A stretch of DNA of 41,175 nt from Thermoguttaceae bacterium. GTDB lineage: Bacteria > Planctomycetota > Planctomycetia > Pirellulales > Thermoguttaceae. The position numbers and the translations under genes were made by a program. The DNA lies in contig JARKPK010000148.1 of assembly GCA_029975295.1 (NCBI GenBank), forward strand, positions 1-41,175, written 5' to 3'. Below the pieces are notes generated by a model, which saw nothing but the letters and a program-made list of their open reading frames with translations, did no database searches and was not told where the DNA came from. Positions 1,228-27,708 of this stretch are shown here, piece after piece (position 1 is the stretch's first letter; every line of letters starts with the position of its first letter).

Positions 1228-1698
1228 TCAGTCGGTTGGAGCCGCCGGTCCGTCGTCGCCCTCGGCCGAGGCCGCTTCTGCCGTGGGCGACGCGGCGGAG
1301 CGGCGTTCGCGCATCAGGCGATCGAGGATGCCGTTGACAAAACTGCCCGAGTGCGCCGTGCCGAATCGCTTAGCCAATTCGATGGCTTCGTCGATGACGG
1401 CTCGCGGGGGCGTGTTCGTATACAACAGCTCGTAAGCCCCCAAGCGGAGCACGTTGCGATCGGTGGCGCTCATCCGGTGAACGCTCCAATGCGCGGCGCA
1501 ACTGGCGAGAAGATCGTCGATTTCCCGACGGTTCCTTCGCACCCCGGCCACCAGTTCGCGGCCGAACGCCACCAACTCCGGTTCGCGCAGCCGGCGGACG
1601 ATCAGATCGTCGGTCATCGCCGGATTGTGCTGCGGGTTCAAATCGTCTTGGAAAAGCACTTGCAGGGCCACGGTGCGGGCACGAGTACGTCGCGACAT
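1228..1698 (-). CDS. nusB: Transcription antitermination factor NusB
   Basis: All-helical NusB protein of 156 residues. NusB with NusE (ribosomal protein S10) binds boxA RNA and supports antitermination of rRNA operons. Recognisable features are the N-terminal RRTRARTVALQVLFQ helix and the C-terminal block NVLRLGAYELLY followed by PPRAVIDEAIELAKRFGTAHSGSFVNGILDRL. A tail of about 25 residues rich in Ala, Ser, Glu and Asp extends past the usual end. The ATG at 1696-1698 lies one base downstream of the ribH stop, and a GGGAGG Shine-Dalgarno sequence sits inside the ribH 3' end, so the two genes are almost certainly co-transcribed and probably translationally coupled. ribH-nusB adjacency is common in bacteria. 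Confidence 0.95.
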   Translation of the reverse strand: MSRRTRARTVALQVLFQDDLNPQHNPAMTDDLIVRRLREPELVAFGRELVAGVRRNRREIDDLLASCAAHWSVHRMSATDRNVLRLGAYELLYTNTPPRAVIDEAIELAKRFGTAHSGSFVNGILDRLMRERRSAASPTAEAASAEGDDGPAAPTD

Positions 1699-1699
1699 G

Positions 1700-2251
1700 T
1701 TACGCTTGCGGCCTCCCGATTGAAGGACATTCCGCCCATGGGCGAAGTTGCTGCATCAGAGCGACCATTTCGAGAGCGGCCAGGGCGCAATCGATGCCTT
1801 TGTTGCCGATGACCACCTGCGCGCCGTCCTTCCCCGAGGTGACTGCGCCGCCCGATCGGGCCATTGCCTGTTCGAGGGAGTTGCAGGTCAGGATGCCGAA
1901 CAGCACGGGCGTGGCGTAATGCACGCCGATCTCGGCAATCGCGCCGCTGACGGCGCGATTGATATGTTGATCATGCGTCGTTTCGCCTCGGATCACCGCT
2001 CCGAGGCAGATGACGGCCGAAAACCGGCCGGAGGCTGCGAAACGTTCAGCGACGGTCGGAATCTCGAACGCTCCCGGCACCCAAGCGATTTCGATCCGAT
2101 CTTCAGCGACGCCGTGTTCTCGAAGCGTGCCGACCGCTCCGTCGAGCAGTCGAGAAGTGATCGACTCGTTGAACCGCGACACGACAATTCCGAATCGCCC
2201 GGCGGCGCCGTCGATCGGCGAACCTTGATAGACTCTCACGCTAACCCCCAT
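1700..2251 (-). CDS. ribH: 6,7-dimethyl-8-ribityllumazine synthase
   Basis: Lumazine synthase of 183 residues. It condenses 5-amino-6-ribitylaminouracil with 3,4-dihydroxy-2-butanone 4-phosphate in riboflavin synthesis and usually forms large cage-like or pentameric assemblies. Family motifs are SRFNESIT near the N-terminus, WVPGAFEIP, and the catalytic segment CLGAVIRGETTHDQHI containing the expected His. A C-terminal GNKGIDCALAALEMVALM helix is also present. The ATG at 2249-2251 gives MGVSVRVYQG; only a weak Shine-Dalgarno is seen. It opens the ribH-nusB-ftsY series and lies 297 nt downstream of rho on the same strand. No other riboflavin genes are in the window. Confidence 0.96.
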   Translation of the reverse strand: MGVSVRVYQGSPIDGAAGRFGIVVSRFNESITSRLLDGAVGTLREHGVAEDRIEIAWVPGAFEIPTVAERFAASGRFSAVICLGAVIRGETTHDQHINRAVSGAIAEIGVHYATPVLFGILTCNSLEQAMARSGGAVTSGKDGAQVVIGNKGIDCALAALEMVALMQQLRPWAECPSIGRPQA

Positions 2252-2548
2252 TCTGAATGCAAACGACGCCGATCTTCCGAATGCCGGTCACCCCGGCTGC
2301 TCGGCAGGCCGTTGCCGCAGGCCTCGTCCCATCCGTTCGGCGAACGCCGTTAACCGGGCCATCAAACGCAGCCGACTGTTGCCGAATCGCCGCCGCCGAC
2401 CGTTTCCATTACGACCGACAACCGAACGAGTCGCTCCAGACTTCCGAGGCGGAATGCCGCCGAAAAACCGCGCCGTCGGATTGGCGGTCAACCGATCGCC
2501 GAACTCAGCCGCCGGCCCGACTTGACCGGCTGCGCTTCGGGCGGCCGA

Positions 2549-4090
<1,542 letters not shown>

Positions 4091-9087: not shown

Positions 9088-12000
9088 GTGAATCCTCAAC
9101 ATGCCGAGTTGCAGCAGTGGGTCGAGCAAATGGCGGCCATGTGCCAGCCGGATCAGATCGTGTGGATCGACGGCTCCGAAGAAGAGAAAAACTGCCTTCT
9201 GCAAGGGGCGATCGCTTCCGGCGAAGTCTCGTTGTTGGATCAGCAGAAATACCCAGGGTGCATCTACCACCGAACCGCAATCAACGATGTTGCCCGGACC
9301 GAAGACCTCACCTACATTTGCACCCGTTTGCGCGAAGACGCCGGGCCGACGAACAATTGGATGTCGCCCGAGGAGGGCTATCGCCGCGCCCGAGAGATTT
9401 TCAGCGGCTCGATGCGCGGGCGGACGATGTACGTGATTCCGTTTTCGATGGGGCCGGTCGGCTCGCCGTTCAGTAAGATCGGCGTCGAATTGACCGACAG
9501 CATCTATGTGGTGCTGAACATGCGGATCATGACGAAGGTGGGCGCCCCGGTACTCAAACAGTTGGGCACGGCCGGCGAGTTCACCAAATGCCTGCACAGC
9601 AAGGCCGACCTGGACATAAAGCGGCGGTTGATCCTGCATTTTCCCGAGGACAATGCGATTTGGTCGGTCGGCTCGGGTTATGGCGGCAACGTGTTGCTGG
9701 GCAAGAAGTGCTTGGCTCTGCGCTTGGCAAGCTATTTGGGACGCCGCGAAGGCTGGCTGGCCGAGCACATGTTGATCATGGGCGTGGAAAACCCCAAAGG
9801 GCGGATCGAGTATATCGCCGCGGCTTTTCCCAGCGCATGCGGCAAGACGAATCTGGCGATGCTGATTCCTCCGGAAGGCTTGCGGATCAAGGGCTATCGC
9901 ATTTGGACCGTGGGCGACGACATAGCCTGGATGCGCATCGATACCGACGGTCGCCTTTGGGCGATCAATCCTGAAACAGGGTTCTTCGGCGTTGCTCCCG
10001 GCACGAATAGCAAGAGCAACCCGAACATGCTCAAGACGATCAGTCGCAACACGATCTTCACCAACGTCGTGTTGGGCAAAGACGGCACGGTTTGGTGGGA
10101 AGGGGCCGATTGGGATCCGCCGGCCGAGGCGCTCGATTGGCAGGGCCGTCCGTGGACGCCCGACACCAAGGACAGCAACGGAAAACCGGTGGTTGGCGCC
10201 CATCCGAACAGCCGATTTACGGCGCCGTTGTCGCAGTGCCCGTCAGCTTCGTTCCGCATCGAGCACCACCACGGCGTGCCGATTTCGGCGATTATTTTCG
10301 GCGGTCGGCGGGCGCGGCTTGCCCCGCTGGTGTACGAAGCCTTCGACTGGGAACACGGGGTGTTTCTCGGGGCGACCATGGCTTCCGAGCGCACGGCGGC
10401 CCAATTCGGCAAAATCGGGGAAGTGCGCCGCGATCCGATGGCGATGCTCCCGTTCTGCGGCTACCACATGGGCGATTACTTCGAGCATTGGCTGAACATC
10501 GGCCGCCGGATGTCTCAGCCGCCGCGGGTGTTTCATGTCAATTGGTTCCGGCAAGACGAGAACGGCGAATACCTTTGGCCGGGCTTTGGCGAGAACCTGC
10601 GCGTGATTGAATGGATTCTCGACCGTTGCCGCGGCGAAGCGGATGCGGTGAAAACGCCGATCGGCTTCGTGCCCACGCCCGAAAGCCTCGATCTGACCGG
10701 CTTGGATTTGCCGCGGGCGAACTTGGAGAAACTTCTGAGCGTTGACCGCGACGACTGGTATCGCGAAAGCGAGAGCATTGTGGGTTTCTTCCAGATGTTC
10801 GGCGATCGCTTCCCGAAGGCCCTTTGGGATCAGCTCGAGGGATTGCGATTGCGCCTGCGGTCGCCCATTTCGTTGGTGCAACCGGGAAGCGACGTGCGCC
10901 CCTTGGCGGCGGAACTGAACGACACGATTGCCCGCGAGAACCCGCACGTTTACGCCATGCTTTCGGAGTTCGGCAAGCGGCTGTTCTTTCCCAAGGGCAT
11001 TTTGGCGCAAAGCGCCGAGGCGAAAGACAAGGCCAAGAAGTTCGACGCCACGATCGGCATCGCCAGCGAACAGGGCAAGCCGATGTATCTGCCGGCCGTG
11101 ATGAAATACTTCAACAACTTGTCGCCGGCCGAGGCGTTGACCTATGCGCCGGCGACGGGTCGGCCCGACTTGCGGAAGCGATGGCGCGATGACTTGCTGG
11201 TGAAGAATCCCTCGCTGCAAGGCAAAGCGATTTCGATTCCGATCGTTACCTCGGGCGTCACCCACGCTCTGAGCCTGGTGGGCGACCTGTTCATCGACAA
11301 GGGCGACATGGTCTTGCTGCCCGATAAGTTTTGGGAGAACTACGAGCTGCTGTTCGGCGTCCGTTATCAGGCGCAGATCGGGCTCTTTCCGTTCTTCAGC
11401 GCGTCGGGCGGCTTCAATGTCGATGCGCTGCGACAGGCCTTGGCCACCCGGGCGGGCAGTTGGAAGACCATTTTGGTGCTCAATTTCCCCAACAATCCGA
11501 CCGGATACTCGATTACCGCCAACGAGGCGCGCGAGCTGGTATCGGTGCTCATCGAGTTCGCCAACGAGGGGCGGAACTTGATCGTTGTGTGCGACGACGC
11601 CTATTTCGGGCTCTTTTACGACGAAGCGGTGTTGGGCGAATCGCTCTTCGCCAAGCTGGCCGGTTGCCACGAGCGGATTGTCGCCATCAAAGTGGACGGC
11701 CCGACCAAAGAGCAGTTCGTTTGGGGATTCCGAACGGGAATGTTGACCTTCGGAGTGAAGGCGGGCTTCAGCGCCGACACCCTTTACAGCGCTTTGGAGA
11801 AGAAGTGTGCCGGCGCCATTCGCAGCGCCATTTCCAATTGCTCGCAGGTGGCCCAGTCGGTGCTGGCCAAGGCGATGGCCGAAGAGGAGTGCGCCGCGCA
11901 ACGTCGGCAGAAGAAGGAGATTCTCGAGGCCCGCGCGCACAAGGTGCGCGAAGTGCTGAACAATCCCGAGTACGCGAAGTTCTGGGAACCTTACCCGTTC

Positions 12001-12219
12001 AATGCCGGGTATTTCATGTGCTTGCGGCTCAAAGGGATTGGCGCCGAGCAGTTCCGCAAACACTTGCTCAATAAGTACGGCGTTGGTGTGATTGCCGACG
12101 GCGCGCACGACATTCGGGTTGCGTTCTCGGCGGTCGAAATCGATCAGTTGCCCGAGCTCTATCAATTGCTGGCCGCTGCGGCACGCGACATCGTCGAAGG
12201 CGAATCCGTGGCCGGCTAG
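9088..12219 (+). CDS. pckG: Fused PEP carboxykinase (GTP) and class I/II aminotransferase
   Basis: One frame of 1043 residues with two complete enzymes. Residues 1 to about 590 are GTP-type PEP carboxykinase (oxaloacetate + GTP to PEP + CO2 + GDP): RTMYVIPFSMGPVGSP, GYGGNVLLGKKCLALR, the P-loop FPSACGKTN with active-site Cys251, and GDDIAWM. After a linker of about 13 residues (591-603) comes a fold-type-I PLP aminotransferase (about 604-1043): NFPNNPTG (799-806), DDAYFG (Asp836, Tyr839), the PLP lysine in GPTKEQ (Lys874) and Arg1010 in DIRVAF for the substrate carboxylate. I use the GTG at 9088, with GGGAG 11 nt upstream, rather than the TTG at 9070. No stop or frameshift lies at the junction. 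The amino donor is unknown; aspartate would couple the two reactions directly. Confidence 0.93.
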   Translation: MNPQHAELQQWVEQMAAMCQPDQIVWIDGSEEEKNCLLQGAIASGEVSLLDQQKYPGCIYHRTAINDVARTEDLTYICTRLREDAGPTNNWMSPEEGYRRAREIFSGSMRGRTMYVIPFSMGPVGSPFSKIGVELTDSIYVVLNMRIMTKVGAPVLKQLGTAGEFTKCLHSKADLDIKRRLILHFPEDNAIWSVGSGYGGNVLLGKKCLALRLASYLGRREGWLAEHMLIMGVENPKGRIEYIAAAFPSACGKTNLAMLIPPEGLRIKGYRIWTVGDDIAWMRIDTDGRLWAINPETGFFGVAPGTNSKSNPNMLKTISRNTIFTNVVLGKDGTVWWEGADWDPPAEALDWQGRPWTPDTKDSNGKPVVGAHPNSRFTAPLSQCPSASFRIEHHHGVPISAIIFGGRRARLAPLVYEAFDWEHGVFLGATMASERTAAQFGKIGEVRRDPMAMLPFCGYHMGDYFEHWLNIGRRMSQPPRVFHVNWFRQDENGEYLWPGFGENLRVIEWILDRCRGEADAVKTPIGFVPTPESLDLTGLDLPRANLEKLLSVDRDDWYRESESIVGFFQMFGDRFPKALWDQLEGLRLRLRSPISLVQPGSDVRPLAAELNDTIARENPHVYAMLSEFGKRLFFPKGILAQSAEAKDKAKKFDATIGIASEQGKPMYLPAVMKYFNNLSPAEALTYAPATGRPDLRKRWRDDLLVKNPSLQGKAISIPIVTSGVTHALSLVGDLFIDKGDMVLLPDKFWENYELLFGVRYQAQIGLFPFFSASGGFNVDALRQALATRAGSWKTILVLNFPNNPTGYSITANEARELVSVLIEFANEGRNLIVVCDDAYFGLFYDEAVLGESLFAKLAGCHERIVAIKVDGPTKEQFVWGFRTGMLTFGVKAGFSADTLYSALEKKCAGAIRSAISNCSQVAQSVLAKAMAEEECAAQRRQKKEILEARAHKVREVLNNPEYAKFWEPYPFNAGYFMCLRLKGIGAEQFRKHLLNKYGVGVIADGAHDIRVAFSAVEIDQLPELYQLLAAAARDIVEGESVAG

Positions 12220-13266: not shown

Positions 13267-14457
13267 TCAGCCGTAACCTCCCATGCCGAAAAACAACTGA
13301 CGTTTGAGAAAACGGTAGATTCGGCTCTCTTCCGGAATCGCCTGTTCGCCAAGATCATGACTTGGTCGGGGCTCCGAGGCGGAAAGCTCGGCAATCACGT
13401 CGCGGCCGCTGAAGTCGCCGGCGCGATGCCGAGCGAAAAACTCAGCCAGCCGGCGCGGTTGCTCCAGGATGACGCAGCCGCGCGTGTGCGATCGACAAAA
13501 CTCTTGAAAGTCGCGGAGCATCGCGCTTTGGTTGATCGCCGCGAATAGGTCTCCTTGCGAGTCTCGCACCGTTTCGCAGGCCAGCGAAAGCGGTGGGCAA
13601 GGCTCGATGCTGCCTTGCGGGCCGATGTGAAACCCCAGGCCGGCGGCCGCGGGGCAAACCGCTTTGCCCTCGGCATCCCAGTAAGTGTCGATCAGGATAA
13701 TCGGGCTTCGTTTTCGCAACGCGATGAGTCGGCGGCGGAACTCCCGCATTCCTTGGGCGTCGAGGGCCAGGTGCGGCGCGGGTTCGGCGCCCACGGGCCG
13801 GTAACCGTAATACCACAGGTAAGCAGCTCCCTGATCGACGAAGAAATCGACATAACGTGCGTCGAGCACTTCGTCGATGTTGCGCGAAGTGACCGTTGTC
13901 GCTGCTCCAAAGAGGAGCCGTCCGCGTTTCAGCTCTTTCAAACCGGCGACGGCCCGGTCGAACACGCCTTCGCCCCGCCGTTGGTCGTTGGCGTCGCGCC
14001 AGCCGTCGATGCTCACCAACGGACTGACGTTGCCGGCCCGCCGCAATCGGCCGACGACCTCCGGCGTGAAGAACAACCCGTTGGTGATGATCTGAAAGTA
14101 GCAGTCGGGATATCCTTCGATCAAACGCCACAGGTTGGGATACAAGAACGGCTCGCCGCCGAGCAACGCGAAGAAGTTGACGGAGTGCTTTCTGCCCGAC
14201 TCGATCACAGTTTGGATTTCTTCCCAACTCAACTGGTTCGGCCGGCCGTGACTCTCGATCCAACAACCGCGGCAGCGCAGGTTGCAGGCGTCCGTCAAAG
14301 CGAGGAACAAAAAGGGGGGAAAGAGTTCGTTGCGGGCCAACCGTTGGCGATACGCTCGCATCGCGCGCAGTCCGCCGCCCACCCACAACCGAGCCGCTTT
14401 GTAGAGCAGCCTGGGCGACACGTGCGTGATCATCCTTGCGATATATCGCAGAAGCAT
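13267..14457 (-). CDS. Radical SAM/SPASM-like enzyme
   Basis: Radical S-adenosylmethionine protein of about 396 residues. The [4Fe-4S] motif is CNLRCRGC (Cys58-x3-Cys62-x2-Cys65), followed by the SAM-binding GGEP (about 100-103) and ITNGLFF. A C-terminal cysteine set (about 267, 286, 293, 320, 327) could hold an auxiliary cluster, as in SPASM or twitch domains. The substrate is unknown. It does not look like HpnH of hopanoid synthesis, whose cluster motif context differs. It is divergent from the terpene cyclase gene, with 236 nt between starts. A strong promoter candidate ends about 9 nt upstream of the first ATG (14457), so the mRNA may be nearly leaderless, or the start may be the second Met at 14433. 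A 14-bp palindrome lies between the two starts. Confidence 0.88.
   Translation of the reverse strand: MLLRYIARMITHVSPRLLYKAARLWVGGGLRAMRAYRQRLARNELFPPFLFLALTDACNLRCRGCWIESHGRPNQLSWEEIQTVIESGRKHSVNFFALLGGEPFLYPNLWRLIEGYPDCYFQIITNGLFFTPEVVGRLRRAGNVSPLVSIDGWRDANDQRRGEGVFDRAVAGLKELKRGRLLFGAATTVTSRNIDEVLDARYVDFFVDQGAAYLWYYGYRPVGAEPAPHLALDAQGMREFRRRLIALRKRSPIILIDTYWDAEGKAVCPAAAGLGFHIGPQGSIEPCPPLSLACETVRDSQGDLFAAINQSAMLRDFQEFCRSHTRGCVILEQPRRLAEFFARHRAGDFSGRDVIAELSASEPRPSHDLGEQAIPEESRIYRFLKRQLFFGMGGYG
14437..14450. promoter_or_regulatory. 14-bp perfect palindrome, possible operator
   Basis: TGCGATATATCGCA is a perfect two-fold palindrome just downstream of the predicted transcription start of the radical SAM gene (centre about +16). 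It falls in codons 3-7 if the first ATG is used, or in the leader if the second is used. The position suits a repressor site; the regulator is unknown. Confidence 0.4.
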
Positions 14458-14465
14458 GGGGGAGC

Positions 14466-14495
14466 ATTATAGCAGCATCGCCGCAAATCTGTTAA
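14466..14495 (-). promoter_or_regulatory. Near-consensus sigma70-type promoter for the radical SAM gene
   Basis: On the minus strand TTAACA (5/6), an 18-bp spacer and a perfect TATAAT. The predicted start is about 14459, two or three bases before the first ATG of the radical SAM gene. It is one of the two best promoter matches in the window. Confidence 0.6.
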
Positions 14496-14693
14496 GCTAT
14501 GCGGCTTACATCTTGGGCCGATCGTCTTCGCCGGTCAGACCCGGCCGGGCGGTGCGCGGACTCAACCTGCACGGGAAACGCGGTTCGGAGGAACGAATCC
14601 GTCCGCCGACCTAATGGCTGCCGCTGTTGGCGATCGTTTGCTCGGCATCTCCAATGGCCGAAACCGCGATGCAGAGGGAACATTCGGCAGATC

Positions 14694-16589
14694 ATGGAAA
14701 TGATCGACTCACAGACACTTCTTCAGTCGCATCAGACGGTTCGCCGCGAGCTGCTGGCGATGCGCGACGCGCACGGCGTGTGGCGCGGTTGGCTTTCCAG
14801 CTCGCCGTTGGCGACCGCCACATCGGTCAGCGCTCTATCGCTGTTTGCCGATCGGTCGCCCGACGACGCGCTTTCTAACGCTTGCCGGCAGCTTTCTCAT
14901 CGCGGAGTCGATTGGCTCTTGGGGCGCCAAAACGCCGATGGAGGGTGGGGCGACACTGACCGGAGCCTGTCGAACATCTCGACGACGCTTTTGGCAATGG
15001 CCGCGCTGCGGCTTGCCGGAGCTAGCGCACGAGCGGGAGATGCCCTGGGACGTGCCGAACAGTATGTGCAGCGGCAGGGCGGAACGGATGCCGTTGTCCG
15101 GCGGTACGGCAACGACCGCACTTTCGCCGTGCCCATTCTGATGAATTGCGCTTTGGCGGGCATGGTCGATTGGTCGTCCGTGGGCAGCCTGCCCTTCGAA
15201 TGGGCTTGTCTTCCGCACCGCTTTTGGCGGTCGATTCGGCTGCCGGTAGTCAGCTATGCGCTGCCCGCGTTGGTAGCTGTCGGGCAAGCGTGCTACCATC
15301 ACCGAAAACCGTGGAATCCGATCACCCGTTTGTTGCGTGGATTGTGCCGTCAAGCCAGTCTGTCGGTCATCGAGCCGATGCAACCGGCCGACGGCGGCTT
15401 TTTGGAAGCGATTCCGTTGACGGCCTTTGTGGCGATGGCGCTGAGCTCGATCGGGCTGGCGGAACATCCCATCGCGCGGCGCGGCGTGAAGTTCTTGCTC
15501 AACGCCTTCCGCGACGACGGCGGGTGCCCGATCGACATTGATTTGGCCGTTTGGAACACAACGCTGGCGGTGGGATCGCTGGCGAAAGCGGCCGGCGATG
15601 TCGGCGCGCTGGGGTGTCTTGATTGGTTGCTCGGTTGCCAGCACACTCGCGAGCATCCGTTCACCCACGCGCCGCCGGGCGGGTGGGCCTGGACCGATCT
15701 TTCGGGCGGAGTGCCCGACGCGGACGACACCTCGGGCGCGCTGCTGGCGCTTCGTTCGTTGAGAGGGTCGGCGGCGCCGTCGCAACACCACCGCATCGAT
15801 TCGGCGGCGGCGGCGGGGATTCGGTGGCTTCTGGATTTGCAGAACCAAGACGGCGGTTGGCCCACGTTTTGCCGGGGATGGGGCAAGCTCCCCTTCGACC
15901 GTAGTTCGCCGGATCTAACGGCACACGCTATTCGAGCCCTTTGGGCTTGGGCTCCTAATGCCAGCGCTGCGGCAAGCGGTCACGATCAACCGCCGTCGTC
16001 CGAAGTGCCGCGCAGCGCGCCAACGGGCGGAAGCAGGCAGGGCTTCCCCGTGGCCGAGATCAGCGCAGCCGTGAGTCGCGGATTCGAATACTTGTCGCGG
16101 ATGCAGCAGCCCGACGGAAGCTGGACTCCGTTGTGGTTCGGCAACCAGTTCGAGCCGAATGAGGAGAACCGGGTTTACGGAACGTCTCGCGTGCTCTTGG
16201 CGTTTGCGGCAGCAGGGCGAACCGCCCGGCCTGAAGCGGTTCGTGGTGTTGATTGGTTGATGTCGCGGCAAAGCGCTGACGGCGGTTGGGGGGGCGACCG
16301 CGAGGCAGCGCCGCGGCCGTCGAGCGTGGAAGAGACGGCCGTAGCCCTCGAATCGCTGCTGGCGACTTGCGCCGACCGAAAGCACCCGCTTCCCATTCAA
16401 GCGGCCTTGCAATGGCTGATCGGCGCTGTTGAGTCGGGCCAGTACCGCGAGGCTTCGCCGATCGGCTTGTATTTCGCCAAACTCTGGTACTACGAAAAAA
16501 CCTATCCCGTTGTCTTCACTTTGGCGGCCCTGGGCGAGGCCATACGGCGCTGGCTGCCGGCGAACGGGCACTCGGAACACCATCAGTGA
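14694..16589 (+). CDS. Squalene-hopene-cyclase-like class II terpene cyclase
   Basis: Protein of 631 residues, the length of classical bacterial squalene-hopene cyclases, with the same repeat architecture. It has QW-type repeats RQNADGGW (about 78-85), LQNQDGGW (382-389), MQQPDGSW (470-477) and SRQSADGGW (524-532). The acid motif DADD (342-345, in GGVPDADDTSG) is the DxDD signature of class II cyclases that protonate a terminal alkene. The C-terminal block IGLYFAKLWYYEKTYP also fits the superfamily. A low-complexity insert lies at about 421-450. The ATG at 14694 has GAGGGAA 13 nt upstream; a longer upstream frame is unconserved in appearance. No squalene synthase genes are present, so squalene is not assured as substrate; a linear polyprenyl chain is possible. 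Confidence 0.85.
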   Translation: MEMIDSQTLLQSHQTVRRELLAMRDAHGVWRGWLSSSPLATATSVSALSLFADRSPDDALSNACRQLSHRGVDWLLGRQNADGGWGDTDRSLSNISTTLLAMAALRLAGASARAGDALGRAEQYVQRQGGTDAVVRRYGNDRTFAVPILMNCALAGMVDWSSVGSLPFEWACLPHRFWRSIRLPVVSYALPALVAVGQACYHHRKPWNPITRLLRGLCRQASLSVIEPMQPADGGFLEAIPLTAFVAMALSSIGLAEHPIARRGVKFLLNAFRDDGGCPIDIDLAVWNTTLAVGSLAKAAGDVGALGCLDWLLGCQHTREHPFTHAPPGGWAWTDLSGGVPDADDTSGALLALRSLRGSAAPSQHHRIDSAAAAGIRWLLDLQNQDGGWPTFCRGWGKLPFDRSSPDLTAHAIRALWAWAPNASAAASGHDQPPSSEVPRSAPTGGSRQGFPVAEISAAVSRGFEYLSRMQQPDGSWTPLWFGNQFEPNEENRVYGTSRVLLAFAAAGRTARPEAVRGVDWLMSRQSADGGWGGDREAAPRPSSVEETAVALESLLATCADRKHPLPIQAALQWLIGAVESGQYREASPIGLYFAKLWYYEKTYPVVFTLAALGEAIRRWLPANGHSEHHQ

Positions 16590-17222
16590 GACGGACCGCG
16601 CCGTTCGATTCCGACGCACGATCTGTTTGCACGGTGGCACGAAGCGATGCGGGTCGGCGCGGCAGCAGACGGAACGCGATCCCGGCCCTGCCGGCCCGGC
16701 CAAAAGCGCACATCGTTCGCTCGAGCCTTGCTCGATTCGCCAGGAGCTCGTGCCGCTTGGGAAAAGGCGTTTTGTGAAACGCCACTTCACTGAGCAATAG
16801 AAGGAACGGAACTCGGCAAGCGGCACGTTCGCCTTGGGTTCCCATCCCATTGAAACGGTGCTGCTGCGGTTGAACTCGTTACGGGACCATGCCAGTTGAT
16901 TCGGAGGGCGACTGGCCCGTCGGCAGTGTTCGACATCGGCCCGGGGGCAATCGCCATCCGCCCGGTGTAAACGCCGGTGGCCCGCAGCAAACCCATGGAA
17001 AATGGCATGTTGCAGGCCGATCGCGGCATGGGGCGCCCCGGCACTCGCACACAGCGTTGTTGGTTGTGTATGATAATGCTTCGATCGCGTTCGAGGACGC
17101 AAGCGTCCAGAACGGCGTCGGCCGCGGGGGGCGCTCAGCTCGGAGGTCGCTTTTTTGGCGGGCAAGTCGCTTGTTTTTCTCCTGATTCCGTGATGGGCCC
17201 CTTGTCGCTCTGCCTGTGAGTA
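16590..17222. other. Spacer between the terpene cyclase and DUF116-prenyl synthase genes
   Basis: 633 bases with no supported gene. A perfect hairpin, GGCGTTT-TGTG-AAACGCC, lies at 16766-16783 (7-bp stem, 4-base loop, no T-run), about 180 nt after the cyclase stop. It could be a weak terminator or processing site. The spacer makes a single cyclase-prenyl synthase transcript uncertain. Confidence 0.5.
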
Positions 17223-19193
17223 TTGCCGGTGGCTGCCAGTTCGTTTCAACTCCGTTCCGATGCAACGGCAGATGCCGGACTGCTGCCCGTCTTGGGTAAT
17301 CGGGGCAAGGGCAATGCCCTTACGCGGGTTCCAGAAACCCGCGACTTGCGCGACCGCATTCGAACGGCGGTGGACGAGTGGATTGCTCGCATTGACCGGG
17401 CCCGTCCGCTAAGCCGATACGAACTGGAGACCGCCGCACGCTCGTTGTTGACGAAGATGGGATTGCCCGGTGAGTTTGCCGGTTGGACGATGGTGGCGAT
17501 CGCGTCGCGCTTCTGGGCGGAACAGGTCGAATCGGTGCCTTTCAGCCGGCGTCTGCTCTTGCTGCCGCACTGTTTGCGCAAAGCCGAGACATGCCCGGCC
17601 GCTTTCGATCACCTGGGCCTGGTGTGCCGGCATTGCGGCGCTTGCGATTTGCACCAGCTTGCCCGGCATGCCGAATCGCTCGGCTACAAGGTGATGATTG
17701 CCGAAGGGTCGCCGGTAGTGCTCAAGACGATCTTGAGCGGGCACGTCGATGCTGTGTTGGGGGTTGCCTGCTTGGAGACCCTCGAGCGCACGTTCGACAA
17801 AATTCTCCTTGCCGGCATTCCTTGCATGGCGGTTCCCTTGGTTGAGGCGGGCTGCCGCAACACTTCGGCCGATGCCGATCAGATCACCGAAATGATCGAT
17901 CGACCCTACCGCCCGCAAGTGCAAACCACACGCACGTACTTGCACCTGATGCGCCTTGCGGCGCGGATGTTCGATTGGGAGCAATTACGCAAGCTTGCCT
18001 CGTCGCAGGTCGAGCCGCTGGGAATGCGAGGCATCGGGCCGGAACCGTCAGCGAGCGATGCGAACGGCGGTTCGTCGCCGTCCATCGCCGGAGGCGAGTT
18101 GCTTGGAGGCGAGATCGACGGCACACCGATCGCCCGTCTGCTCGATGGCACGGAGTCGCTGGCTCTCGACTTCCTTCGCGCCGGCGGAAAGCATTCGCGC
18201 CCCTTCATCACGCTGGCCGTTTACGACGCTATGCTTGGCGGGAGGGCGACTGGGCCCGAGGGTGCAGCGGCGGCCGCGGCCATGCCCGACCATGTGCGGC
18301 GTATTGCGCTGGCAATCGAGGTGTTTCACAAGGCGTCGCTTGTTCATGACGATGTGGAAGACGACGATCGTGTGCGCTACGGGCAACCGACGATCCATCA
18401 CCGCTTCGGGCCGGCGGTGGCGATTAATGTGGGCGATTTTCTGATTGGTTTGGGCTATCGGCTCATCGGACAACCCAGCGACCATGTGCCCGCCGATTCG
18501 GCGGCCGATTTGCTTCGTTTGTTCGCGTCGGCGCACATGCGGTTGGCGCAAGGGCAGGGGGCGGAGCTGATTTGGCGCGACGGGGGCAATAAGCATCTGG
18601 AGCCGCTCGACGCTCTGCGAATCTACGCCCTGAAGACAGCGCCGGCGTTTGAAGCGGCCATCTTGGCCGGAGCGCGTTTGGCCGGTCCGATCAACGCGGG
18701 CCTGAAAGAAGCGGTCGAACGCTACTCGCGGCATCTTGGGGTCGCCTTTCAGATACTCAATGATTTGGACGACTGGTCGGAAGATGCAATCCGACAAGCG
18801 GGTTCGCTCAAAGAAGCGGATTCCGCGACGCCCGCGGGCGGCGGGCCGATCGTTCGAGCAGGTGCGCCCCGATCGAAGCAGGGGTCAGACGTGCTGGCCG
18901 GTCGGCCGACAATCCTTTGGGCCTTGGCATGGCAGCGGCTTTCTCCGGCAGAGCGCCGATGGTTGATCGACCTGCCCACGGCCGGTTGCGCCGGCGAGCG
19001 GCTTAGCCAAGCGGCCGAGTGCTTTTCGCGCACAGGAGCTTTTCAACGGGCGGCCTCATTGGTGGTCAAGCATCATCGACGCGCGATCGAAGCGGCCGAC
19101 GGGATGGAACCGGAGCCGCTGCGTTTCTTCTTGCGGTTTCTGGCCGATGCCATTCTGGATCGGCGCCCTCTCTCGATCAACGACCATGGATGA
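17223..19193 (+). CDS. DUF116 domain fused to polyprenyl diphosphate synthase
   Basis: Protein of about 656 residues. The N-terminal third (about 65-220) is a DUF116 domain with cysteines in PHC, CPA, CRHCGAC, GVAC, GIPC and GC (about 117, 124, 135, 138, 141, 183, 201, 211), suggesting metal or Fe-S binding. Residues about 300-650 are a trans-isoprenyl diphosphate synthase: GGKHSRP (321-327), the first Asp-rich motif DDVED (376-380), and a second motif NDLDD (513-517) with Asn replacing the first Asp. An insert (about 523-550) follows the second motif before GSDVLAGRPT. The chain length made cannot be read from sequence. The start is uncertain: TTG at 17223 or GTG at 17229, both with weak ribosome-binding sites. 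It lies 210 nt upstream of the ABC exporter. Confidence 0.88.
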   Translation: MPVAASSFQLRSDATADAGLLPVLGNRGKGNALTRVPETRDLRDRIRTAVDEWIARIDRARPLSRYELETAARSLLTKMGLPGEFAGWTMVAIASRFWAEQVESVPFSRRLLLLPHCLRKAETCPAAFDHLGLVCRHCGACDLHQLARHAESLGYKVMIAEGSPVVLKTILSGHVDAVLGVACLETLERTFDKILLAGIPCMAVPLVEAGCRNTSADADQITEMIDRPYRPQVQTTRTYLHLMRLAARMFDWEQLRKLASSQVEPLGMRGIGPEPSASDANGGSSPSIAGGELLGGEIDGTPIARLLDGTESLALDFLRAGGKHSRPFITLAVYDAMLGGRATGPEGAAAAAAMPDHVRRIALAIEVFHKASLVHDDVEDDDRVRYGQPTIHHRFGPAVAINVGDFLIGLGYRLIGQPSDHVPADSAADLLRLFASAHMRLAQGQGAELIWRDGGNKHLEPLDALRIYALKTAPAFEAAILAGARLAGPINAGLKEAVERYSRHLGVAFQILNDLDDWSEDAIRQAGSLKEADSATPAGGGPIVRAGAPRSKQGSDVLAGRPTILWALAWQRLSPAERRWLIDLPTAGCAGERLSQAAECFSRTGAFQRAASLVVKHHRRAIEAADGMEPEPLRFFLRFLADAILDRRPLSINDHG

Positions 19194-20422: not shown

Positions 20423-21244
20423 ATGTCGCCGGCGGCAGCGTGGACGATCATCCGCATCAGCATCGCCGAGCGATTGATCTATCGCGGCGATTTCGCCCTG
20501 GGCACGTTGATGCGCTTCTTGCCCATCGTCACGCAGGTGTTCTTGTGGGCAGCCGTCTTTTCGGCCCTCGACGCCGCCGGCCGACCCGCCGAGGTGGCGG
20601 GCTTTTCCTATCGCGAGATGATCGCCTACTACCTTCTGACGATGGTGGCCCGAGCATTCTCCAGCATGCCGGGATTAGCCTCGGGCATTGCGCGCGACAT
20701 CCGCAGCGGCGCTGTCAACAAGTACTTGATTCAGCCGGTGGACATGCTCCACTACCTGCTGCTGCACCGTATTGCGCACAAGTTGGTGTACTACTCGGTG
20801 GCCTTGGGGCCGTTCGCACTGGTGTTTCTGCTGTGCCGCGGTTTTTTCCCCGGTTGGCCCGACCCTGAAACGCTTTGCGTTTTCGCAGCATCGCTGGTGA
20901 TGGCGTTTCTGCTGGGGTTTTTCTTGGAGAGCGCGCTGGGAATGATCGGGTTTTGGTTCCTTGAGGTGAGTTCGCTCTTGTTCGTTTACATGTTGTTCGC
21001 GTTTTTCTTTTCCGGGCACATGTTTCCGATCGACATGTTGCCCGCAGGAGTTGCGACCGTTGTTCGACTGCTGCCGTTGCAGTATTTGGCCTATTTCCCC
21101 GCGGCGGTGTTCTTGGGCAAGGTGAGCGGTCCGGAGCTTTGGCAATCGCTGGCCGTCGAGGCCGCGTGGATTGTCTTTTTCGCCTTTGCCGGACGGATTG
21201 CCTTCAGGCGGGGAGTGCGACGCTACGGCGGCTACGGCGGTTGA
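20423..21244 (+). CDS. ABC-2 type permease subunit 1
   Basis: Integral membrane protein of 273 residues with about six hydrophobic segments, for example FLPIVTQVFLWAAVFSAL, a long central helix pair near 140-185, and VSSLLFVYMLFAFFFSGH. It resembles the first permease of the COG4586/4587/3694-type ABC trio. The start codon lies two bases after the ATPase stop, with GAGGTG from the end of that gene as Shine-Dalgarno, so expression is tightly coupled. It would form the translocation pore with the following permease. The export direction is inferred from the ABC-2 type and the lack of a binding protein. Confidence 0.85.
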   Translation: MSPAAAWTIIRISIAERLIYRGDFALGTLMRFLPIVTQVFLWAAVFSALDAAGRPAEVAGFSYREMIAYYLLTMVARAFSSMPGLASGIARDIRSGAVNKYLIQPVDMLHYLLLHRIAHKLVYYSVALGPFALVFLLCRGFFPGWPDPETLCVFAASLVMAFLLGFFLESALGMIGFWFLEVSSLLFVYMLFAFFFSGHMFPIDMLPAGVATVVRLLPLQYLAYFPAAVFLGKVSGPELWQSLAVEAAWIVFFAFAGRIAFRRGVRRYGGYGG

Positions 21245-21262
21245 GAGGGCGCGCAAACGGCG

Positions 21263-22168
21263 ATGAGAACGATGGATTCGAGACAATCCGCGAATCCCGC
21301 GCTTGGGGCGGCCGACGGTGGGCCGATCGGTCCGAGCGGCCCGCTTCGTTACGTGCGCGTGATGGCCGTTTTCGCGCGGAACAGCCTGGTCCGGGACATG
21401 ACGTTCCGTGTGAACTTTTTGATCAATGTTGCGTCGTCGATCTCTTGGGTGTTGATGAACTTGGGCTTCTACCTGTTGATCTTTCGTTTTGCGCCGTCGA
21501 TCGGCGCGAGCACCGGCTGGGAACAATGGCCGTTTTTCGCGTTCTTGGCGACCGGTTTGTTGATCAATAGCACCGTGCATGCGTTGTTCATGGTCAATGC
21601 GGACGAGTTGAGCGAGCTCATTCGCACAGGCAATCTCGATTTCGTGCTGCTTCGCCCGATTGATACTCAGTTCATGGTTTCGCTGAGTCGGATTGATTGG
21701 TCGGCATTGGGCAATTTTTGCGTGGGTCTGATTCTGCTTGCCACCGCGCTTGTTCGGATGAATTATCTGCCGAGTTTTCTCGAATGCGCCCTGTACGTGT
21801 TCTTCCTGGTCTGCGGAGTGGCGATTTACTATAGCTTGATGATCGCGCTGGCGGCTTCGAGCGTTTGGCTGGGCCGCAATCTTTCGCTGCTGGATTTCTG
21901 GTTCTACATCACGACATTCGCCCGTTATCCGATGGAGATTTACCAAGGGCGATTCGGCGCGCCGCTCCGGGCGGCGTTCACTTGGGTGATTCCCGTGCTC
22001 GTGGTGGTTAATGTGCCGGCGCGATTGCTCGTTCAATCGGTTCGGCCTTCGTCGGCGAGCGATTGGTTCTTGGCGGCCTTCGCCGTGGCGGCGGCGATCG
22101 CAAGCCTTGCCGCCTCGCGGATCATCTTTCAAATCGCGCTTCGGGCGTATCGCAGCTCCGGGAGTTAG
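21263..22168 (+). CDS. ABC-2 type permease subunit 2
   Basis: Second permease, 301 residues, about six membrane segments after a cytoplasmic N-terminal tail of about 30 residues. The pattern VMAVFARNSLVRDMTFRVNF then a first membrane helix is typical of the third partner in these ABC-2 trios. NTGNLDF-like text appears as IRTGNLDFVLLRPID, a conserved cytoplasmic coupling region. It starts 18 nt after the previous stop. It completes an exporter of one ATPase dimer and two different permeases. No substrate can be assigned from sequence. Confidence 0.85.
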   Translation: MRTMDSRQSANPALGAADGGPIGPSGPLRYVRVMAVFARNSLVRDMTFRVNFLINVASSISWVLMNLGFYLLIFRFAPSIGASTGWEQWPFFAFLATGLLINSTVHALFMVNADELSELIRTGNLDFVLLRPIDTQFMVSLSRIDWSALGNFCVGLILLATALVRMNYLPSFLECALYVFFLVCGVAIYYSLMIALAASSVWLGRNLSLLDFWFYITTFARYPMEIYQGRFGAPLRAAFTWVIPVLVVVNVPARLLVQSVRPSSASDWFLAAFAVAAAIASLAASRIIFQIALRAYRSSGS

Positions 22169-22486
22169 CCTGAACTGCGGCGCTGCGGCCGAAGGCCGGG
22201 CGCGGCCTTGCGTCGCATTCATGCTTGTCGATAATGTGTCTGCGAAGCAATGCGTTGGGGGGCGGCCGAGGCGGGCCGACTTGGGTTGGCAAAACCGCGA
22301 GCTGTACGAAACACCTCGTGGTTGCGGATCAATAATGCTTTGATTTAGTCGGCGCCGAGGCGCCATGAGGGACCGTCGCTCCGCTTAGGCCGTTTGGCCG
22401 CACGCGGTTCGTCGGGCCGAGGCTGCTTTCGCGCAGGTTCGATGGTCGTACCGATTGTGCGCGTTTTGGGAAAAGGCGGTTGATTG
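22169..22486. other. Spacer between the ABC exporter and the TIM-barrel gene
   Basis: 318 bases, no supported gene. A short hairpin CGGCC-GAA-GGCCG lies at 22186-22198, 18 nt after the permease stop, and an isolated AATAAT at 22331-22336 lacks a good -35 partner. Nothing else is evident. Confidence 0.45.
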
Positions 22487-23341: not shown

Positions 23342-23925
23342 GGCGTTTCGGTCCGTTTGTCTCATCCCGGTTTCGCAAAGAAAGAATCATCGGCTGCGCG
23401 CTGCTTCTGCATGTTTGCTCGCTGGCGCGTGCAATGATGGCGACGGGTTGGGAAATGGGCAATGTCCTCGTCGGCAATCGGAAAAGGGCCATCGCCGAAA
23501 ATGCAAACCCCTGTTGAGTGCGGCGAAAGAACCGCGGCGTGCTTGCGATGGAAGCGGCTTGTGAGCCTGTTGCCGCTGCAATCGCCGCTCGGTTGTTGCA
23601 GCCGATAAAGATCGGGCGTCGCATCGCGTTCGAGTTGCCGTTGCGGGTGTTCGCTTTCGCTCAATCGGCGTTCGGGGTAGAATTCGTTGTGGTGGGCCTT
23701 CGACAACCGGAACAGGGCGAATTGTCTGCGGAAGCGATGGCCGACGACGTGAGCCGTTGACGCGGCGACGGGGCGATCGATCGTCGCTCCTGCAACCGCG
23801 CAATTCCTTTCCGTCCCAAACAGAACCGCGGAAAACAAATAGCAGTGTGGCGGCGCCGTGTCCGCCCTGCGAACGATTCGCTTTGCTCTCGGCCGCTTTT
23901 TTCGCGGACCCATTCAGTGTGATCC
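23342..23925. other. Spacer upstream of the UbiA-type gene
   Basis: 584 bases. A frame at 23518-23760 (+) could encode 80 residues, but it has no recognisable domain and no clear ribosome-binding site, so I do not call it. A TAGAAT at 23678-23683 resembles a -10 element with a poor -35; if used, the UbiA leader would exceed 200 nt. Confidence 0.45.
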
Positions 23926-24864
23926 ATGGTTCTTTTTCGCCGCGATCGACCCAACTGGCCAGCGCTGGCAGAGCTTGTTCGGGTTCCGAATTTGCCCACG
24001 GCCATGGCCGATTCGTTGATGGGGGCCCTGTTTGTTTCGGCCGATCGCTCGGCGGGTGGTTGGCCGGCGGTGGCTCTGGTCGCCGCGGCCTCGATGCTGA
24101 TGTATGCCGGCGGCGTGGCCCTGGGAGATGTGTTCGACGTTGCCGACGATGCCCGTCGCCGACCGAGCCGCCCGATTCCCTCGCGTCGGGTTTCGCTGCC
24201 GATGGCGCGTTTGGTTGCCGCCGAACTGCTGCTGCTGGGATCGACCGCGGCATGGTTTGCCGCGTTCTTCGCCGGCACGCTTTGGCCCGGCATCACCGCG
24301 TTGGCCTTGATTGCGACCATTGTCGCCTACACCGCTTGGCTGAAACGCACCTTTCTGGGGCCGGCGGCCATGGGAATGTGCCGGGCGTTGAACGTGTTGC
24401 TCGGTGTCAGTGCTGCGCCGCAATTTGCGCCGACCGCCGTTTGGCTGGTTGCCGCGGCTGTAGGGACGTACACGGCAGGGATCACGCTTTTCGCGCGGAC
24501 CGAAGAATCAATCAGCCGGCGGCGGACTCTCCTGCTGGCCACCGGGATTATGTTGGCCGGCCCCGGCCTGCTGGCATGCCTTCCGCTGACCGATGCGCCG
24601 TTGATTCCCACTCTGGTCGCCGAGCCGATGCGGTGGATCGTTCTGATGCTGATCTTGGCCTTGATGATTTCGTGGCGATGCGTTCGTGCGGTCGGCGACC
24701 CGCGGCCGATGCTTGTCCAGGTCACCGTGGCCTACGCGATCATGACATTGGTGGTGCTCGATGCCGCGGCGGCCTTCGCCGTGCGCGACGTCCAGGCGGC
24801 AGTGGTGATCTTGGCCTTGCTGATGCCGACGATTCTGCTTGCCCAGCGATTCAAGGCGACCTGA
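23926..24864 (+). CDS. UbiA-family prenyltransferase (EboC-like)
   Basis: Polytopic membrane protein of 312 residues with about eight to nine hydrophobic segments. The first Asp-rich motif reads GDVFDVADD (67-75), matching NDxxDxxxD with Gly for Asn, followed by the family hallmark RPSRPIPSRRVS (79-90). The usual second motif region reads TLFARTEES (about 187-195), without the DxxxD pair of aromatic prenyltransferases. This, with MGMCRALNVLLG (149-160), recalls the EboC-type UbiA branch; that resemblance is from memory, not a search. UbiA enzymes move a prenyl group from a diphosphate to an acceptor, so the upstream polyprenyl synthase is a plausible donor source. The ATG at 23926 is the only good start. 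Confidence 0.85.
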   Translation: MVLFRRDRPNWPALAELVRVPNLPTAMADSLMGALFVSADRSAGGWPAVALVAAASMLMYAGGVALGDVFDVADDARRRPSRPIPSRRVSLPMARLVAAELLLLGSTAAWFAAFFAGTLWPGITALALIATIVAYTAWLKRTFLGPAAMGMCRALNVLLGVSAAPQFAPTAVWLVAAAVGTYTAGITLFARTEESISRRRTLLLATGIMLAGPGLLACLPLTDAPLIPTLVAEPMRWIVLMLILALMISWRCVRAVGDPRPMLVQVTVAYAIMTLVVLDAAAAFAVRDVQAAVVILALLMPTILLAQRFKAT

Positions 24865-25154
24865 GCCGGACGCACTGCGCAAATCCCGCCGGAAATGCGA
24901 CCTAATCGCCGCGAAGCAGCGAGCCGTGTTGAGGGCGGTTGCGCGTAGATACGGATCGGCGCGGCCGTTCAAACGGCGAGCGCGGCAACCGTCTGCGGCC
25001 AACCGATTACCGGACTGCCGGCATTCGGCCGCACGGAACCGCTCAACCGCCGGGATCGCCGCTCATCCGGCATGATCGCTGCGACGAAAACGGCCGGAAG
25101 GCGTCCGCGGCGCGGCGGTTTTCGGGCCATGTGGGCACGCTCGATCGCAAGCGA
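24865..25154. other. Convergent spacer between the UbiA-type gene and argF
   Basis: 290 bases between two converging genes. It contains a small hairpin GCCGT-TCAA-ACGGC (24964-24977) and a wider inverted repeat GAAAAC...GTTTTC (25086-25091 and 25118-25123) with a GC-rich interior. Either may contribute to termination; neither is a canonical terminator. Confidence 0.4.
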
Positions 25155-26084
25155 TCATCGCACGACGTCGGCCGCGCCGAGCAGCCAAGCGAGTATCGCT
25201 TTCTGCACGTGCATGCGGTTGCCTGCTTGCCGGACGACAACGCTGTTCGGACCGTCAATGACCTCGTCGGTCACCTCCTCGCCGCGATGGGCCGGAAGAC
25301 AATGCATGAACACGGCGTGGCGCGGCGCGGCGGCCATCAGTCGGCCGTTGACCTGGTACGGCGAGAATATCGCGATCCGCTCGTCTCGCTCTTTCTCCTG
25401 GCCCATGCTCACCCAAACGTCGGTATAAACGGCGTCGGCTTGCGCAACAGCCTCGAAGGGGTCGTCGACAAAGGCGATGTCCAACGTATCGGCGTGTCGG
25501 CGAATCCACACCAGTTCATCGTCCGAGAATCGGTATTGCGTCGGACAGGCGACGAGCATCTTCATGCCCGTCCGCCCGCAGCCGAGGGCCAGACTGCGGG
25601 CCACATTGTTGCAGTCGCCGATCCACGCCAGCGTCGATCCGGCCAGTTTGCCCCGCAATTCACGGAGGGTGAACAGATCGGCCATCGCCTGACAGGGGTG
25701 GCTGAAATCGCTCAGTCCGTTGATGACGGGGCACGAGGCGCAACGGGCCAACGTGGCGAGCGTGTCGTGGGCGTAGCAGCGGACGACGATCGCATCGACG
25801 TACTCGCTCAACACCCGGCCGAAGTCCTCGATCGACTCGCGTTTTCGAAATCCTGCGTCGGGGCCGAGGAACAGCGTGCTGCCGCCCAATTGCCCCATGC
25901 CGGCCTCGAAGCTGACACGCGTTCGCAGCGAAGGCTTTTCGAAAATCATCGCCATCACCCGGCCGGCCAGCAAGGGGCGGCGAACGCCTTCGGCCAGCTT
26001 CGATTTGAGATCGGCGGCGATGTCGAACAAGCGGTTCACTTCGTCCGCGTTGACGTCAGCCAATGAGAGCAAATGACGTGGCAC
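25155..26084 (-). CDS. argF: Ornithine carbamoyltransferase
   Basis: Forms citrulline from ornithine and carbamoyl phosphate; 309 residues. The carbamoyl-phosphate loop is SLRTR (52-56, in FEKPSLRTRVSFE), a common variant of STRTR. HPCQ (129-132), the ornithine-side DVWVSMGQE (222-230) and HCLPAHRGEE (261-270) are intact. The SMG loop and HCLP motif favour ornithine over aspartate or acetylornithine. The start is GTG at 26082-26084, supported by GGGAGGA nine bases upstream. It is the last gene of argB-argD-argF, 54 nt after argD. Confidence 0.96.
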   Translation of the reverse strand: MPRHLLSLADVNADEVNRLFDIAADLKSKLAEGVRRPLLAGRVMAMIFEKPSLRTRVSFEAGMGQLGGSTLFLGPDAGFRKRESIEDFGRVLSEYVDAIVVRCYAHDTLATLARCASCPVINGLSDFSHPCQAMADLFTLRELRGKLAGSTLAWIGDCNNVARSLALGCGRTGMKMLVACPTQYRFSDDELVWIRRHADTLDIAFVDDPFEAVAQADAVYTDVWVSMGQEKERDERIAIFSPYQVNGRLMAAAPRHAVFMHCLPAHRGEEVTDEVIDGPNSVVVRQAGNRMHVQKAILAWLLGAADVVR

Positions 26085-26138
26085 GATAATAATCCTCCCA
26101 GGCGCGAACCTGTTTCGACGGGCGCGATTCCGCAGGCG

Positions 26139-27329
26139 TCAGGCGTTGGCCGCATAACGCCGCAGCACGTCGGCGATTATGTCGCAACCCTGATGGGCAA
26201 GTTCTTCGGTCAGTGTCAGAGCCGGCAGCAAACGCAGCACGTTGCCATGGGTGCAATTGATGAGCAGTTCGCGCTCAAGGCACGCCTTGACGATCGGCGC
26301 GCCTTCGAAGGCCAATTCCACGCCGACCATCACGCCCCGAACCCGAACATCTCGAATCGCTTCGCACTGCTGCTGCAATTCGACGAAGCGGGAGCGAAAC
26401 AGTTCGCCCAATTGCTTGCCTCGCTCGAGCAGCGACTGCTGTTCGATCATCTCAACGGCCGCCAATCCGGCCCGTGCGGCAATCGGGTTGCCCCCGAAAG
26501 TGGCCGCATGCATGCCGGGCCGCAAACTCGGGGCGATTTCGCGCTTGACGAGCATGGCTGCTCCGGCAATGCCCCCGCACAGGGCCTTGGCCAAGGTCAT
26601 GATATCGGGGACAACATGATCACCTTGGTAAGCGAACCATTCGCCCGTTCGGCCGAAGCCCGTCTGAACCTCGTCGAAAATCAGCAGCAACTCGCGTTCG
26701 TCGCACAAACGCCGCAGTCCGGCGAGGAATCCCTCCGGCGGTATCCGCACGCCGCCCTCGCCCTGGATCGGCTCGATCATGATGGCGGCCGTCTCGTTGT
26801 CGATAAGCCGTTCCACCGCGTCGAGATCGCCGAACGGGGCGTACACGAAGCCGGCCATCAGAGGCCCCAGCCCCTCGTGATATTTCGGCTGCGCCGTCGC
26901 CGAGGTCGAACCAAGGGTTCGGCCGTGAAAGCCGCCCTCAAACGTAATGATCTTGTATTTGTGCTTCGGCGTGTGCAGACGCGCCAATTTGATCGCGGCT
27001 TCGTTTGCCTCGGTCCCCGAGTTGCAGAAGAAGGCTTGGCCCCCGAAACTTCGCTCCGACAGGGCTTGAGCCCATCGGCCTTGCACTTCGGTGTACCAGG
27101 TGTTGGGCACATGAATCAGTTTGCCCACTTGATCGCGCACGGCGTCCACAACAGGCCCGGGGCAGTGCCCCAGCAAGTTGCATCCCCAGCCGGGAAAAAG
27201 ATCCAAATAGCGGCGCCCTTCGCTATCCCAAACATACGAGTCTTCACCACGAACCAGGCTGACCGGGAATCGGGCATAATTGGGAACAACGTATTGCTGG
27301 AACAGCTTGATCGTTTCTTCGCTGGTCAT
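26139..27329 (-). CDS. argD: Acetylornithine aminotransferase
   Basis: Class III PLP aminotransferase, 396 residues, converting N-acetylglutamate semialdehyde and glutamate to N-acetylornithine and 2-oxoglutarate. It has NSGTEANE (103-110), [10 protein letters not shown] (132-141), [13 protein letters not shown] (217-229) and the PLP lysine in TLAKALCGG (Lys248). The family also includes ornithine and succinylornithine aminotransferases; the argB and argF neighbours settle the assignment. The ATG at 27327-27329 has no clear Shine-Dalgarno. A hairpin of 8 outer base pairs starts 19 nt upstream (27348-27390). The 379-nt gap to argB is long for an operon. Confidence 0.95.
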
Positions 27330-27708
27330 AATCGCTGCATCTTTCTGGGCGTCGGGCCGTCATCGGGCGATGGCCCTGCGGTCCGACGCCGAACAATACT
27401 GCTCGCCCGTTCTTCGTTGGGGACGGCCTGCGCCAACCGGCTGCGGCATTGCGGGCAACCAAGTGAAACGACGCACAAAGGAAAGCGGCTCGGTGGTCGG
27501 TTGCACGTCCCTCCGCCGCTTCGCCGCGCTGGGCGACGCTATCACTATGGCGCGGCCTTGTTTCGAAGCGGACGATCACATTCTCGGCATTGCGCAGCTC
27601 ACCGACGCCGTTGCGGGCATCTCGCTTGCGATCTGAACAACCGTGCCGCCGTCGCCCGGCTTCTCCCAAGCGGCCGCGGCTTGTCGAAAAGCCCCGCTTC
27701 AGCCTCCT
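27330..27708. other. argB-argD intercistronic region
   Basis: 379 bases with no supported gene. The reading frames here are shadows without domain content. The notable element is the hairpin at 27348-27390, close to the argD start. No strong promoter was seen, so argD may depend on the argB promoter. Confidence 0.45.
27348..27390. repeat. Inverted repeat upstream of argD
   Basis: Outer arms GGCGTCGG (27348-27355) and CCGACGCC (27383-27390) pair perfectly over 8 bp. The interior can add GCC/GGC and ATC/GAT pairs around a GGGC loop with bulges. It lies 19-61 nt upstream of the argD ATG, where it could affect translation, mRNA processing or termination after argB. Confidence 0.4.

Follow-up and report, generated by a model that had tools for sequence, protein, structure and literature searches.

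A natural fusion of GTP-type phosphoenolpyruvate carboxykinase with a probable aspartate aminotransferase in Planctomycetota and Armatimonadota

The known GTP-dependent phosphoenolpyruvate carboxykinases (PEPCK; EC 4.1.1.32) are described in excerpts of PMC8100219 as free-standing and mostly monomeric. The same excerpts describe a fusion at the phosphoenolpyruvate (PEP)-pyruvate-oxaloacetate node, that of malic enzyme with a phosphotransacetylase (PTA)-like domain which is inactive and allosteric. Another fusion at this node is reported here from contig JARKPK010000148.1 (assembly GCA_029975295.1) of a Thermoguttaceae bacterium of the Planctomycetota; the window, i.e. the whole stretch of DNA analysed, is 41,175 nucleotides long. 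A single unbroken reading frame at 9088-12219 (+) places two enzyme halves on one chain, a PEPCK followed by an aminotransferase, and unlike in the malic enzyme case, catalytic residues are kept in both. Among the titles listed by searches of the open-access literature, none reports a PEPCK-aminotransferase fusion. Judged by its sequence, the protein combines two enzyme kinds, both known, in one bifunctional chain. Its features are the following.

9088..12219 (+): whole fusion gene, GTG start at 9088, TAG stop at 12217-12219, 1043 amino acids
9115..9744 (+): PEPCK N-terminal domain, PEPCK_N (PF17297), residues 10-219; Pfam, E 3.1e-86
9754..10848 (+): PEPCK C-terminal P-loop domain, PEPCK_GTP (PF00821), residues 223-587; Pfam, E 9.3e-162
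9829..9852 (+): PEPCK P-loop PSACGKTN including Cys251, residues 248-255; every letter invariant in 27/27 fusions
10861..10896 (+): linker between the NF003253 and NF006388 matches, residues 592-603, by NCBIfam boundaries; ungapped in 27/27 fusions
10897..12192 (+): aminotransferase half (NF006388), residues 604-1035; best Protein Data Bank (PDB) chain 2x5f_A, E 1.3e-104
11707..11709 (+): Lys874, the pyridoxal phosphate-binding lysine by alignment with Escherichia coli AspC; kept in 27/27 fusions
11821..11823 (+): Arg912, aligned with AspC Arg280 (pig Arg292)
12115..12117 (+): Arg1010, aligned with the AspC alpha-carboxylate Arg; kept in 26/26 fusions that reach this position

The start codon is that of the homologue alignment; the open reading frame (ORF) caller had placed it at TTG 9070. 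Residues 4-591 match the GTP-PEPCK model NF003253 at 872.5 bits (cut-off 504; model positions 19-608 of 612) and are 50-51% identical to the Mycobacterium tuberculosis enzyme (PDB 4wou). The likeness to free-standing GTP-PEPCK extends over the full length, both domains, the P-loop and the metal and substrate residues. Lys206/207, His227, Cys251, Lys253, Thr254, Asp277/278 and Arg407 are the same in all 27 aligned fusions; we take their P-loop, reactive-cysteine and metal-site roles to be those of rat PEPCK. The second half matches NF006388 at 590.1 bits (cut-off 301; model positions 2-431 of 433), with the Pfam domain Aminotran_1_2 on residues 667-1024, and is a fold-type-I aminotransferase. 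That the halves are a GTP-PEPCK and an aminotransferase, as enzyme kinds, is almost certain from these matches. Both halves are also under purifying selection, the ratio of nonsynonymous to synonymous substitution rates (dN/dS) being 0.03-0.12 in the PEPCK half and 0.07-0.16 in the aminotransferase half over six close pairs.

A first-pass annotation of the window had claimed a natural fusion of two complete enzymes, naming Cys251, the P-loop, Lys874 and Arg1010 as catalytic residues and a linker of about 13 residues. The full-length matches above the cut-offs agree with this, the residue numbering is right, and 12 residues separate the end of NF003253 (591) from the start of NF006388 (604). 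The alignment is ungapped over residues 585-612 in all 27 fusions. The annotation had also seen neither stop nor start-site context at the junction; the former is correct, but in-frame ATG, GTG or TTG codons do lie nearby in the window, e.g. at residues 596, 597, 603 and 606. No junction start-codon column is common to all 27 fusions, the commonest (597) occurring in 16, and separate translation of the aminotransferase half is not supported by conservation. An AlphaFold2 model built from a 39-row alignment has a mean predicted local distance difference test score (pLDDT) of 74.9, with values below 50 at residues 592-600; its predicted template modelling score of 0.49 is too low to place the domains, and a single-chain model cannot reveal a dimer. 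The best 50 matches of a fold search were all PEPCK chains, which carries no information on the aminotransferase half.

How widespread is the fusion? A collection of genomes from 84,980 species was scanned with six short peptide patterns, giving 52 loci, a lower bound, which were classed by tblastn and translation. An intact fusion without an inner stop is present in 26 of the 52 (one of these, L066, is ended by the contig end at residue 1005). Three further loci extend across the junction: L074 and L088 are truncated by the contig start and open throughout, and L073 splits into two matches at residues 870/876 on a contig of a metagenome-assembled genome (MAG) with coverage 1.9. The 28 fusion loci readable in one frame have no inner stops, and the 29 that span the junction are labelled as Planctomycetota (20) and Armatimonadota (9). 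Of the remaining 23 loci, 12 are free-standing PEPCKs and nine free-standing aminotransferases; the last two, L077 and L082, lie at contig ends of the same MAG and may be parts of a single broken fusion. Among the 25 genomes of the organism's own family, the whole fusion is found in six (G000, G002, G004, G013, G014 and G018) and in two contig-end pieces in G006; none of 15 other genomes of the order has it, and among the matches listed for 392 genomes of the phylum, one of whole length came from the own genome alone. The evidence from sequence conservation is that the fusion is a real, natural joining of two intact enzymes, as first proposed. No conserved neighbours were seen in 21 fusion loci (20 and the window) within at most three ORFs per side; matches between neighbours were limited to four pairs, of which one came from two sister genomes. 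The gene thus appears to move and to be kept by itself.

In a tree of 76 PEPCK rows, made by a quick method and with weak inner support, the fused rows form one group, so that separate fusion origins in the two phyla are not needed. The group also holds the unfused-looking L023 and L024 (family f100, unresolved) and the contig-end piece L077. In the aminotransferase tree (40 rows), the standalone L092 (the same as L011), L094 and L095 branch from within the fused sequences, and L094 and L095 group with fusion L059 (support 100/100). A topology with the fused aminotransferases apart from these three was rejected (approximately unbiased test, p-AU 0.0002), the group having been named after the tree was seen. 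Part of the linker is kept in the standalone proteins: L094 and L095 read PGSQLRPLA where fusion L059 has PGAQLRPLA. We read this as a single fusion event and transfer between the two phyla, after which some lineages lost the PEPCK half. In the family genome that carries the L011 aminotransferase (G007), a divergent, unattached PEPCK (36% identical) is encoded at another place.

Of particular relevance is G001, a genome of the own family in which an unfused PEPCK (about 1432-3225, -) and an aminotransferase (about 104-1402, -) stand side by side at locus L021, in the same order as in the fusion and with the aminotransferase starting 23 nt after the PEPCK TGA. This PEPCK is GTP-type (593.4 bits, cut-off 504) and shares no more than about 33% identity with the PEPCK of the fusion; the aminotransferase belongs to the NF006388-type family of the fusion, is 54% identical and falls outside the fused group. 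As the G001 PEPCK is of an unlike lineage, two PEPCK lineages have been placed before this aminotransferase, and the pair is, on the evidence of gene order, independent support for a functional link.

Which amino acids does the second half use? NCBIfam names NF006388 'hypothetical protein' and attaches no function, and among the 25 NCBIfam models listed for the protein, the named aspartate aminotransferase models fall far below their cut-offs, NF006388 being the best for this half. The half resembles the NF006388/PRK08637 family (PDB 2x5f, which presumably is from Staphylococcus) in length and active-site pattern, and that family is elsewhere free-standing. E. coli AspC is distant in sequence, belongs to a different subfamily and has no attached PEPCK, yet its active-site Trp, Asn, Tyr, Lys and Arg residues and the dicarboxylate Arg align: Trp749, Asn803, Tyr839, Lys874, Arg882, Arg912 and Arg1010 match both AspC and TyrB and do not vary across the 37 aligned family members. 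The position of AspC Arg280 (pig Arg292) we take to bind the side-chain carboxylate of aspartate or glutamate. Four of the seven other aminotransferase-like proteins encoded in the own genome were aligned, and their residues in the Arg912 column are Gly, Gln, Asp and Asp. Because an AspC-type Arg912 is found throughout the family, aspartate and glutamate are the likely substrate pair, and there is good reason to expect aspartate to be a main substrate. Aminotran_1_2 has eight matches in the own genome, the fusion included. Two of the other seven are above an NCBIfam cut-off (hisC and LL-diaminopimelate aminotransferase), and two BioF-like and one MocR-like protein lie below.

The first-pass annotation had supposed an aspartate-accepting aminotransferase whose oxaloacetate is shared with the carboxykinase, running from aspartate to PEP, possibly with channelling or nitrogen-sensitive control. 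Given the AspC-type dicarboxylate Arg, the shared intermediate is likely; the enzyme may act on aromatic substrates too, TyrB having the same Arg. As for direction, excerpts of PMC8100219 put the GTP reaction, run in the direction of PEP, at -4.3 +/- 6.7 kJ/mol, which is near equilibrium, and mention that some bacteria use PEPCK for CO2 fixation. The own genome (99.99% complete) has no match for PEP carboxylase (PEPC), pyruvate carboxylase (PYC)/OADA, ATP-PEPCK, malic enzyme or isocitrate lyase, in a search that did not cover pyrophosphate-dependent PEPCK (PPi-PEPCK) and archaeal-type PEPC; it has one Ldh/Mdh-type match. Since no other tested C3-to-C4 enzyme and no isocitrate lyase gave a match, carboxylation of PEP, with the oxaloacetate going on to aspartate, is the probable job of the fusion, and the aspartate-to-PEP course is less supported as the main direction, both reactions being reversible.

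The wider gene content is consistent with such a role. PEPC and PYC are each found in 0/25 genomes of the own family (G000-G024). GTP-PEPCK is present in 14 at E <= 1e-20 (in pieces in G016) and ATP-PEPCK in 12 (weak or divergent, at 133-145 bits, in G002, G011, G019 and G023), so that all 25 have a match to one or the other. Elsewhere in the order, each of the 15 genomes carries at least one of PEPC (in 9) and PYC (in 13). Twenty other fusion genomes, which have no completeness figures, cover 20 of the 29 fusion loci; of the nine uncovered loci, five (L054, L056, L057, L072 and L078) seem to be from family genomes already counted. PEPC occurs in one of the 20, PYC in four and neither in 15, and 15 have an Ldh/Mdh-type match. 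Isocitrate lyase gave matches in 13 of 45 genomes, 10 above the cut-off and nearly all short pieces near 50 bits. The glyoxylate shunt is apparently often lacking in Planctomycetes, according to excerpts of the Symmachiella description (PMC7716862). Only G002 has two long isocitrate-lyase pieces; these lie on contig C381 (11188-14000), directly before the divergent ATP-PEPCK match, in a fusion-bearing MAG where contamination is possible.

The proposed explanation is a single polypeptide in which a GTP-type PEPCK and an aspartate-type aminotransferase would share oxaloacetate. PEP + CO2 + GDP would give oxaloacetate + GTP, and oxaloacetate + glutamate would give aspartate + 2-oxoglutarate, the net result being anaplerotic aspartate synthesis; immediate transamination against the glutamate pool might pull the near-equilibrium PEPCK step. 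Fold-type-I aminotransferases act as dimers, and for this reason the fusion protein is expected to be a dimer, with one PEPCK domain per chain. Taken whole, a shared-oxaloacetate fusion that serves mostly for anaplerotic aspartate synthesis is favoured, if by no wide measure; the fusion, its active-site residues, selection, spread and gene content are read directly from sequence, and the substrates, direction, dimer and pulling are inferred. More tentative is the further idea of a PEP-to-aspartate synthase that conserves phosphate-bond energy as GTP and that, in part of the Planctomycetota and Armatimonadota, has replaced PEPC and PYC in carrying out the main C3-to-C4 conversion. Several observations weigh against the favoured explanation. 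Malic-enzyme matches occur in 8/25 family genomes, including the fusion genomes G004 and G014; of the 20 further genomes with a fusion, five carry PEPC or PYC, four ATP-PEPCK and five malic enzyme; and excerpts of PMC7716862 list PPi-PEPCK, not searched for in the own genome, for the planctomycete Symmachiella. The Arg of the Arg292 type does not separate aspartate from aspartate-plus-aromatic specificity, and either of two own-genome proteins under every NCBIfam cut-off (L126 and L128) may be an aspartate aminotransferase of a different subgroup. Standalone aminotransferases also lack an adjacent PEPCK in nine of ten contexts (L021, L092, L094, L095, L096, L098 and L100-L103), the G001 pair being the one exception.

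Could the chain instead work in reverse, the second half turning aspartate into oxaloacetate and the first making PEP, for gluconeogenesis from amino acids? The identical active-site residues would serve either way, and gluconeogenesis is termed the primary PEPCK role in most organisms in excerpts of PMC8100219, but the own genome would then be without any found C3-to-C4 route among those searched, and this direction is considered rather unlikely. Also unlikely, and slightly more so, is that the halves were joined merely for equal expression or PEPCK dimer formation, without coupling and with an aminotransferase acting mainly on other substrates, e.g. aromatic amino acids. The Arg shared with TyrB, the 2x5f depositors' name (aspartate/tyrosine/phenylalanine aminotransferase) and the lineages that lost the PEPCK half and kept the aminotransferase are in keeping with it; the G001 pair, with its different PEPCK lineage, points to a shared pathway. 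The malic enzyme excerpts (PMC8100219) offer a precedent at the same metabolic node for one half being catalytically dead and acting, as the PTA domain does, in regulation or sensing, yet invariant catalytic residues in both halves of 27 fusions and low dN/dS in both make this highly improbable here. Lastly, related genomes were checked for split genes, which would indicate an assembly error. An assembly or sequencing artefact joining two genes has no point in its favour and is ruled out, its probability being negligible, as the fusion recurs in related genomes of two phyla and many MAG projects, in 26/52 loci with three more that reach across the junction.

If anaplerotic aspartate synthesis is indeed the role of the fusion, CO2 fixation at the PEP-oxaloacetate node would be covalently linked with nitrogen assimilation into aspartate, and phosphate-bond energy would be retained as GTP, unlike with PEPC. 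The fusion would also offer an explanation for growth on sugars in bacteria that lack both common anaplerotic carboxylases, a testable function for the unassigned family NF006388 and a natural part for the engineering of aspartate-derived products.

The genes around the standalone aminotransferases mostly tell little. An aspartate-semialdehyde dehydrogenase-like (asd-like) gene, cut by the contig end, lies about 0.3 kb downstream of L096, a point in favour of the aspartate reading; purC precedes L100, and nadC is on the opposite strand near L102. No notable neighbours were seen for L092, L094 and L095.

The window carries a second fusion-like frame at 17223-19190 (+), in which DUF116 (residues 75-225) precedes a polyprenyl synthetase domain (317-521). 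Near it are a radical SAM gene (13267-14454, -) and a gene resembling squalene-hopene cyclase (14499-16586, +); the genes at 13267-19190 look like an isoprenoid or hopanoid cluster. Four long open frames, putative genes at 20675-22363 (-), 23757-24902 (+), 26073-27749 (+) and 36171-38714 (+), have no Pfam match at E <= 1e-5. A frame of 1700 residues at 30588-35687 (+) contains many tetratricopeptide repeats and a weak Peptidase_C39-like match at residues 310-415.

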